The notes under the pieces: generated by a model
Seen by the model: only the letters and a program-made list of their open reading frames with translations
Told to the model about the DNA's origin: nothing
Database searches by the model: none
Part shown: in pieces, positions 6,435 to 58,007 of the stretch
How the letters are laid out: each line of letters starts with the position of its first letter
Position numbering within the stretch: the stretch's first letter is position 1
Assembly: GCA_026401035.1 (NCBI GenBank)
Contig: JAPLNR010000060.1
Location: forward strand, 124,001 to 188,000
Length of the DNA stretch: 64,000 nucleotides
DNA from: Planctomycetia bacterium
GTDB taxonomy: Bacteria; Planctomycetota; Planctomycetia; Pirellulales; UBA1268
Reading direction: 5' to 3'
Translations under genes and position numbers: made by a program

Positions 6435-6578
6435 CACCTGCGACCCCCCGATGCTGAGGAGCCGGGATCGGCGGAAGCTCGCGGAGCATTGGAGTTTTCG
6501 CTGAGTCGAGGTCAGCGCTGTCGCACGGCCCCAGTGCGAAAAATCCACGCGACAAGACTTCTGCCGGCCCGGCGACCA
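6435..6578 (-). repeat. Intergenic repeat family A, copy 1
   Basis: Read on the minus strand, this ~140-bp stretch matches 38891-39032 closely and 56121-56250 more distantly. The shared core includes GTCGCGTGGATTTTTCGC, then CAGCGAAAACTCCAATGCTC, CTTCCGCCGATCC and CTCCTCAGCATC. The outer parts (GGCAGAAG and CTTCCGCC) can pair imperfectly, suggesting a folded element. No open frame is conserved between copies. Confidence 0.8.
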
Positions 6579-6650
6579 ATGCGGGTTGCTTGTACAGCGC
6601 AGGAAGTCGACCCGGATGCGCTTCAGGATGAAGTGGTCAACAAATGCAAT

Positions 6651-6670
6651 CACCGTGCCGAACAGGATCG
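6651..6670 (-). repeat. Solitary end of the large palindromic repeat (family B)
   Basis: CACCGTGCCGAACAGGATCG matches 18 of 20 bases of the terminal inverted repeat bounding the element at 30016-30460. It sits 12 nt beyond the trpA stop with no rest of the element nearby, so it is either a remnant or an independent occurrence of the motif. Confidence 0.55.
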
Positions 6671-29727: not shown

Positions 29728-30015
29728 TGCTGGCTCCTTGAACTGGTGTTTCGCATCAGGTGGATGCGGGTGGGGTTGCTGGACGGCCTTCGGTGGGAAG
29801 GTCTGAGGGAAGTATGCAGCATGCCGACGGCGCAAGCTTTTCCCGTTCCGAAAAATCTCCCGCTGGTCCGGCTATTCCGGACAGGGCAATCCCTGCGGCC
29901 CCGCCGCGGCCTCACGACCGTCACATTCGGACCGTCCTGAACCACCAGCGGTGCCGCCGCACATGCAGGAGTGCCGGCCACTCGCGTCGGGATCCGGCGG
30001 CAATGCGGCCTGTCC
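29728..30015. other. Intergenic flank with nothing recognised
   Basis: About 290 nt between the small planctomycete gene and the large repeat. Apart from the ribosome-binding site of that gene I see no conserved open frame, promoter pair close to consensus, or RNA gene. Confidence 0.5.
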
Positions 30016-30460
30016 CAATCCTGTTCGGCACGGCGATTGCGTTGAGGCGCCCAATCCGGCTTCGGGCCACCCACGCCCCGTCGCCGGACGTTCACTGCGG
30101 GCATCCATGCCCTTCGCTCACTCGATGCTGCCTGCGCTGGTCAGAGCGCCTGCGCTTCGCCATCCTGGCTGCGCTGGCCAGCAACGCCGGCTCCCGGGGC
30201 ATGGATGGCCCTTTGCCTCCGTCTGACTGTGTCATCTCCTTCGGGTAGGCACGGGGTATCCCGTGCCCCAGGAGCCGGGCTCGGCGGCCAGCGCAGCCAG
30301 GATGGCGAAGCGCAGCCGGCGTGCAGAGAGCGCAGGGCAGGATGCCCGTAGCGAACGTCCGGCGATGGGGCATGGGCTACCCCGTGCCGGTTGGGCGGGT
30401 TGACTCTCGGTACCAAACGCCAGGCCGGCCTCAAGGCAAGCGCCGTGCCGAACAGGATTG
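30016..30460 (+). repeat. Large palindromic repeat, family B copy 1
   Basis: A 445-bp element bounded by a perfect 20-bp inverted repeat: CAATCCTGTTCGGCACGGCG at 30016-30035 and its exact complement at 30441-30460. The two arms are themselves related inverted copies, sharing for example CTGCGCTTCGCCATCCTGGC, so the whole is a long imperfect palindrome. No transposase-sized frame is present. A second copy lies at 57501-57930 in the opposite orientation and a solitary end at 6651-6670. It resembles a MITE-like non-autonomous element. Confidence 0.82.
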
Positions 30461-30511
30461 AGCCCGTCCTCCTTTCCGGAGGGCAATCTTCGTGCCGCAA
30501 GCCCGGATAGA

Positions 30512-57500: not shown

Positions 57501-57930
57501 ACAATACTGTTCGGCACGGTGATGGCCTCGACGCGGGCTTGGGGTTTGGCACCGAGAGTCAACCCGCCCAACCGGCACGGGGGTGCCCATGCCCCATCGC
57601 CGGTCGTTCGCTACGGGCATCCTGCCCTGCGCTCTCTGCACGCCGGCTGCGCTTCGCCATCCTGGCTACGCTGGCCGCCGAGCCCGGCTCCTGGGGCACG
57701 GGCACCCCCGTGCCTTCCCGAAGGAGATGAACACACGCGTACGGAGGCGAAGGGCTACCCATGCCCCAGGAGCCGGCGTTGCTGACTAGCGAAGCCAGGA
57801 TGGCGGAGCGCAGTCAGCATCGAGTGAGCGGAGCCCAGGATGGGCGCAGTGAACGTCCGGTGACGGGGCGTGGGTGGCCCGAAGCCGGGTTGGGCGAAGA
57901 TGGGCACAGCGTGACGCCGTGCCGGTTTTC
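57501..57930 (-). repeat. Large palindromic repeat, family B copy 2
   Basis: This ~430-bp element is the inverted counterpart of 30016-30460: its left part matches the right arm of copy 1 and its right part the left arm. The left end reads CAATACTGTTCGGCACGG; the right end is decayed but keeps the CCGTGCCG core. It stops 2 nt before the 3' end of tRNA-Arg, so it may have inserted beside the tRNA gene. No open frame is conserved. Confidence 0.78.
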
Positions 57931-57932
57931 AA

Positions 57933-58007
<75 letters not shown>

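Follow-up and report, generated by a model that had tools for sequence, protein, structure and literature searches.

A miniature element with IS4-family-type ends carries an inverted pair of structured repeats in a planctomycete genome

The MIC231 mobile insertion cassettes of Bacillus cereus carry genes between the ends of IS231, an insertion sequence (IS) of the IS4 family, and are moved in trans. Dispersed palindromes of bacteria, for their part, are usually described family by family. QMITE2 of Coxiella burnetii is a MITE with 7–11 bp duplications that contains a GTAG REP and is a target for IS1111 (PMC5896051). Insertion into REP palindromes is known from ISRm22, a member of the IS4 family that provides a precedent for REP targeting (PMC1525189), and GTAG-tagged REPs have been reported from Planctomycetes as well (PMC3733652). 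In the single planctomycete genome considered here, three layers can be traced together, in which an IS inserts into REP-type palindromes and its MITEs bear yet another structured repeat.

The element under study lies in a 64-kb stretch of DNA (the window) from a 3.77-Mb assembly of 82 contigs. The original prediction of a 445-bp element with perfect 20-bp inverted ends proved exact in its extent: copy 1 occupies positions 30016–30460 (plus strand). Its left terminal inverted repeat (30016–30040, plus strand, 25 bp) is of the same type as the ends of the IS4-family elements described below, and its right one (30436–30460, minus strand) is identical over 25 bp to the right end of the IS collapsed in this assembly. 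The left end, CAATCCTGTTCGGCACGGCGATTGC, and the reverse complement of the right end, CAATCCTGTTCGGCACGGCGCTTGC, match at 24 of 25 positions and are identical over the outer 20. The element is short and has no transposase gene, as had been noted. Its interior is instead a pair of copies of one structured repeat (the core), on the minus strand in the left arm (30056–30220, 114.7 bits) and on the plus strand in the right arm (30245–30390, 150.1 bits). The two arms, correctly recognized as related, are ∼69% alike when the element is compared with its own reverse, since both contain a copy of this repeat, on opposite strands. The whole folds strongly (z = −19.9).

Matched against its own genome, the 445-bp sequence finds at least 99 matches, with both strands of the palindrome counted. 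The 16-base end motif ATCCTGTTCGGCACGG matches the genome at least 87 times with two or fewer mismatches, against none for the reversed control; together with the fold, this excludes chance. Two copies had been counted, which holds for the window; genome-wide, seven copies with both ends were found, namely copy 1 and those on contigs C2, C5, C11, C14, C40 and C59. They are 427–499 bp long and 80–89% alike over their matched parts. Copy 2 is indeed reversed and beside a tRNA gene, at 57502–57924 (minus strand) rather than 57501–57930. Its intact end begins at 57502 and differs from the 16-base motif at a single position. Beyond CGTGCCG (∼57923) the opposite end is eroded; it lacks ∼10 terminal bases and stops 9 bp short of the tRNA-Arg(ACG) gene (57933–58006, minus strand). 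Copy 2 likewise contains two cores, at 57572–57717 (minus strand, 145.6 bits) and 57743–57888 (plus strand, 148.7 bits). The predicted lone end is also present, at 6654–6670 (minus strand) instead of 6651–6670, next to AGCCTGTTC, one mismatch from a REP half site. Inside this end lies a different repeat. The same arrangement, in which a lone IS-type end leads inward to another repeat (CCGCATTGGTCGCCGGCGGCAGAAGTCTCC...), is seen at 6500–6670 of the window and at loci L038, L052, L053 and L055, so behind such ends there is a further derivative or a nested family of repeats.

Evidence of insertion comes from target-site duplications and from relatives. Direct repeats of 9 bp lie just outside the CAATCC/GGATTG ends and are recognizable in six of the seven end-to-end copies. 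Three are perfect: AGCCTGTCC flanks the copies in C2 and C14 at either end, and GGACAGGCT the copy in C59. Copy 1, C5 and C40 have imperfect duplications; those of copy 1, GGCCTGTCC (30007–30015) and AGCCCGTCC (30461–30469, both plus strand), agree at seven of nine positions. The pair in C11 (AAGCCTTCC/AGCCTGTCC) is off by an indel. Comparison of the same loci in congeners also turned up sites that lack it. Four of five congeners (G001–G004) share the gene neighbourhood of copy 1; in them the element is absent and the matching flanks are 8–76 bp apart, in intergenic DNA too diverged to align the exact empty junction. Two other MITE sites lack the element in G002 and G005. The 7/9 duplications of the window copy and the 80–89% likeness among copies indicate that most MITE copies are old, and the copies in this genome show no sign of current movement.

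A matching transposase, proposed as a further check, was found in elements that share the ends of the MITE. In the genome to which the window belongs, ∼20 contigs end 100–140 bp inside the end motif. Half of these contig ends enter a start codon followed by MAGKRRKKIREPEITGVKYFKK, the IS left end; the other half are the IS right end, and the longest piece reaches the transposase C-terminus. This pattern implies ∼10 near-identical IS copies collapsed in the assembly, which explains a good share of its 82 contigs (contig ends with the IS include C3, C6, C17, C19, C42, C43, C46 and C48, and further C57, C59, C61, C63, C75, C76, C77 and C78). Only end fragments and deleted copies were assembled in this genome, with no intact IS. 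Complete elements bounded by these ends come from two relatives. The one in G032, a member of the same family, is 1,601 bp long and has a 10-bp duplication (CCATCCCTGG); the one in G058, which belongs to the same order, is 1,422 bp long and has an 8-bp duplication (GATGAGGC).

The IS4 family is defined by D(60–110)D(100–150)E and Y(2)R(3)E(6)K motifs (PMC2266710). The latter is present in the transposases of G058 and G032 and in the own-genome fragment, and the G058 transposase contains D-70-D-115-E. The transposase, encoded in one open frame of 410–413 codons, scores 188.4 bits against the curated family model NF033592 (cut-off 115) and also passes Pfam PF01609 (DDE_Tnp_1). Other traits of the family are likewise found here: duplications of 8–10 bp (approximately one helix turn), CA ends (CAATCC) and a single ORF. 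Judged by its sequence, the parent element is an IS4-family insertion sequence. Its ends are present in 24 of 60 genomes of the planctomycete family. Two other derivatives share these ends and have other insides, one of 523 bp in which transposase gene sequence remains and one of 348 bp. The 523-bp derivative (C29, L139) lies within a further palindromic repeat (GAAAAGAGCTGCGTCC), so that here too the target is an inverted repeat.

The cargo of the MITE is an inverted pair of a ∼146-nt repeat, placed head to head with one copy per arm. The core folds into a 17–23 bp outer stem and a short stem, followed by two branches that end in AGGAU hairpins. Among 62 copies from ∼22 genomes, 91.7% of alignment cells pair, compared with 31–38% when partners are slid by 1–3 columns. 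The covariation score is 0.302 against 0.03–0.05 in the slid control, and 39 of 54 pairs show double changes. Non-Watson–Crick pairs on the sense strand are mostly G-U (99, versus 12 A-C, outside one invariant G-U column). A similar excess (129 G-U versus 12 A-C) is seen in an independent set of 104 matches, taken from named assemblies of planctomycetes and aligned by fitting to the model. The excess drops to 122:38 when the longer structure of 54 pairs is used, because the weaker outer pairs add noise. Mutation bias as the source of the excess is ruled out by unpaired positions, at which C>T (4.4%) and G>A (3.1%) changes are alike. A DNA cruciform is blind to strand, so the bias implies that one particular strand folds, as RNA or as single-stranded DNA, and the substitution pattern thus points to a structure of one of these two kinds. 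Perfection of palindromes by template switching could produce the stems, but not the strand bias.

The core is not a known structured RNA: comparison of 15 loci with the Rfam 15 covariance models (E up to 1) returned one chance-level match (E 0.2), far below its gathering score, and a structured-RNA scan matched the tRNA only. Nor is it a GTAG-REP, a 20–40 bp stem-loop with GTAG at one end, as it is ∼146 nt long, branched and untagged. The CAGGAUG loops bring to mind a CsrA sponge; CGAU and UGAU are found as variants of the loop. In the open-access literature we found neither palindromic repeats nor structured RNAs of planctomycetes that resemble the core.

The interior of the element thus goes beyond the original prediction, in that it is a repeat family in its own right, with a distinct distribution. 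Matches to the core model occur in 51 of 60 family genomes, and copies often number at least 50 per genome. In a phylum-wide set of 392 genomes, only two match: the window's own and one with a weak match of 50.8 bits. This weak match (G380, locus L288) comes from another family of the phylum and may be a distant relative. BLAST likewise matched the core in 32 of 59 genomes, every one within the family, whose genomes are roughly 2–5 Mb in size. Named assemblies that contain the core are labelled Planctomycetaceae, Planctomycetia, Planctomicrobium or Candidatus Kuenenia, and some of these labels look doubtful. The five congeners (G001–G005) each have at least 48 cores, most cores lack IS ends, and inverted core pairs without IS ends are present in other genera. 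By home-made gene calls, 23 cores lie between convergent, 4 between divergent and 28 between tandem genes. Within tandem pairs their orientation is split 14 to 14, and the core therefore has no fixed sense relative to a host gene.

Where the core does lie within transposon ends, these are of more than one kind. Single cores or core pairs bounded by the IS4-type ends also occur in G005 and G463; there the DNA between end and core is unlike that of the window, which indicates separate or remade captures. The window's own genome also contains a second MITE family of four copies (loci L153, L156, L160 and L167, on contigs C18, C19, C63 and C78), with 16-bp ends (TACGGCTCACACTTGA), an apparent TA duplication and one core each. 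From this duplication, the element is apparently of the IS630/Tc1 kind. An end similar to TACGGCTCACACTTGA is also found at L094 in another genome. Besides its solo copies, the core is thus carried by at least two kinds of transposon, the IS4-type and the TACGGCTCACACTTGA-ended MITEs.

Insertions with the IS4-type ends are aimed at palindromes, a second point not contained in the original prediction. With the two ends of one insertion counted separately, 15 of 32 junctions are exactly AGCCTGTCC or its complement GGACAGGCT, compared with 0.008% of random 9-mers. Likewise, 26 of 32 lie within two mismatches of these sequences (random 9-mers, 0.5%). The target 9-mer holds one arm of the palindrome GACAGGCTNNAGCCTGTC, which occurs at no fewer than 389 genome sites against 2 for the control, is often flanked by GTAG and fits the GTAG-REP type. 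A search of the genome for Y1 (HUH) transposases gave a sole match to Y1_Tnp, at 23 bits exactly on the cut-off, in a 100-codon frame (C82:113677–113856); the RAYT of this palindrome may be lost or unassembled.

In relatives a second palindrome, within the core itself, serves as a target. The sequence flanking six IS or MITE copies is a core interrupted at positions 85–93, its second hairpin. For example, a MITE in G463 divides a core into two parts and is flanked by a perfect duplication, GCATCCTGC; the IS of G032 occupies the same position. Breaks in this hairpin were noted at loci L133 (C2), L148 (C39), L347, L350, L351, L353, L354 and L330, caused by IS and MITE copies in relatives and by another foreign stretch in the own-genome copy on C2 (a gap at element positions 322–328). 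This hairpin looks like a hot spot for insertions.

We consider it very probable that the 445-bp element is a non-autonomous MITE derived from the IS4-family IS of its own genome, with ends moved by the IS transposase and the core pair as cargo. This reading brings together the shared ends, the transposase type, the duplications, the congeners without the element, the target bias, and the identity and covariation of the cargo. We infer that movement occurs in trans by a cut-and-paste route. The IS transposase would recognize the ∼25-bp ends common to IS and MITE, excise the MITE and reinsert it elsewhere with a 9-bp staggered cut, preferably in one arm of the abundant GTAG-REP-type palindromes. 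The interior is not IS sequence; the core pair was presumably acquired as cargo by the IS ends. The likeliest path of capture would start from the preference of the IS for palindromes, the core hairpin among them, which could leave IS ends flanking a repeat pair.

The original prediction allowed for either a non-autonomous mobile or a structural element, and both terms turned out to be apt: transposase-encoding elements with the same ends, duplications and congeners without the element argue for mobility, and the cargo is structured. A static element of chromosome structure, or a recombination hot spot that does not move, is very improbable. Such an element might well be palindromic, lie beside a tRNA gene as copy 2 does and favour gene ends, but it is contradicted by the exact ends, the target duplications, the congeners without the element and the matching IS elements. 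The core itself may be mobile, in a single-stranded DNA or RNA-borne manner like that of REP or IS200/IS605-type elements, with the IS ends secondary and lineage-specific. We regard this as a serious possibility, somewhat short of even, and it is compatible with the MITE reading. Its strength lies in the spread of the core beyond the IS ends (51 versus 24 of 60 family genomes), in the many cores and inverted pairs that lack these ends, in the residence of cores within a MITE with unrelated ends and a TA duplication, in the bias to gene ends, and in a strand-specific fold whose G-U excess has no counterpart at unpaired positions. Against it, no core-linked transposase was found, the sole Y1 match in the window's own genome being at threshold, and solo cores have no clear duplication. 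Moreover, the 9-bp duplications of the 445-bp copies lie at the IS ends and not at the core edges, so these copies were moved by the IS ends.

A functional RNA, such as a 3′ UTR hairpin, a terminator or a protein-binding sponge, with the MITE as the vehicle that scatters it, seems doubtful to us, judging from sequence comparison. It would suit the pairing and covariation far above the slid controls, the confinement of the G-U excess to one strand, the conserved AGGAU loops and the bias to gene ends, but the core has no Rfam relative and its orientation in tandem pairs is even. We also offer, tentatively, a broader conjecture: the core may represent a new class of strand-specific structured mobile repeat, active as RNA or single-stranded DNA and restricted to one planctomycete family, that unrelated transposons acquired independently as cargo, and its carrier IS may target the second hairpin of the core, so that each helps the other to spread.

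The MITE itself is of an ordinary kind; the interest lies in the core repeat and in the palindrome preference of the IS. With covariation as strong as that of a real RNA family and dozens of copies per genome, the core offers a test between host RNA elements and parasites that move via a folded strand. The system is also suited to asking how transposases recognize hairpin-prone DNA.

These features place the element among known systems as follows. Like MIC231, it has IS4-family ends around non-transposase DNA; MIC231 carries genes, whereas the cargo here consists of structured repeats only. The target palindrome GTAGGACAGGCT..AGCCTGTC resembles GTAG REPs in being GTAG-tagged and highly repeated, unlike the longer, untagged core with its branched fold. 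Compared with ISRm22, the REP sequence and the host phylum differ, the MITEs share the insertion bias, and relatives use the second hairpin of the core. As in QMITE2, the element is small, with terminal inverted repeats, similar duplications, an intergenic or 3′ UTR location and a palindrome inside (PMC5896051). It differs from QMITE2 in its ends and transposase, in a driving IS that also targets palindromes, and in its cargo, where a larger structured repeat of another kind forms an inverted pair. QMITE2 is nonetheless the nearest published parallel that we found for this MITE.
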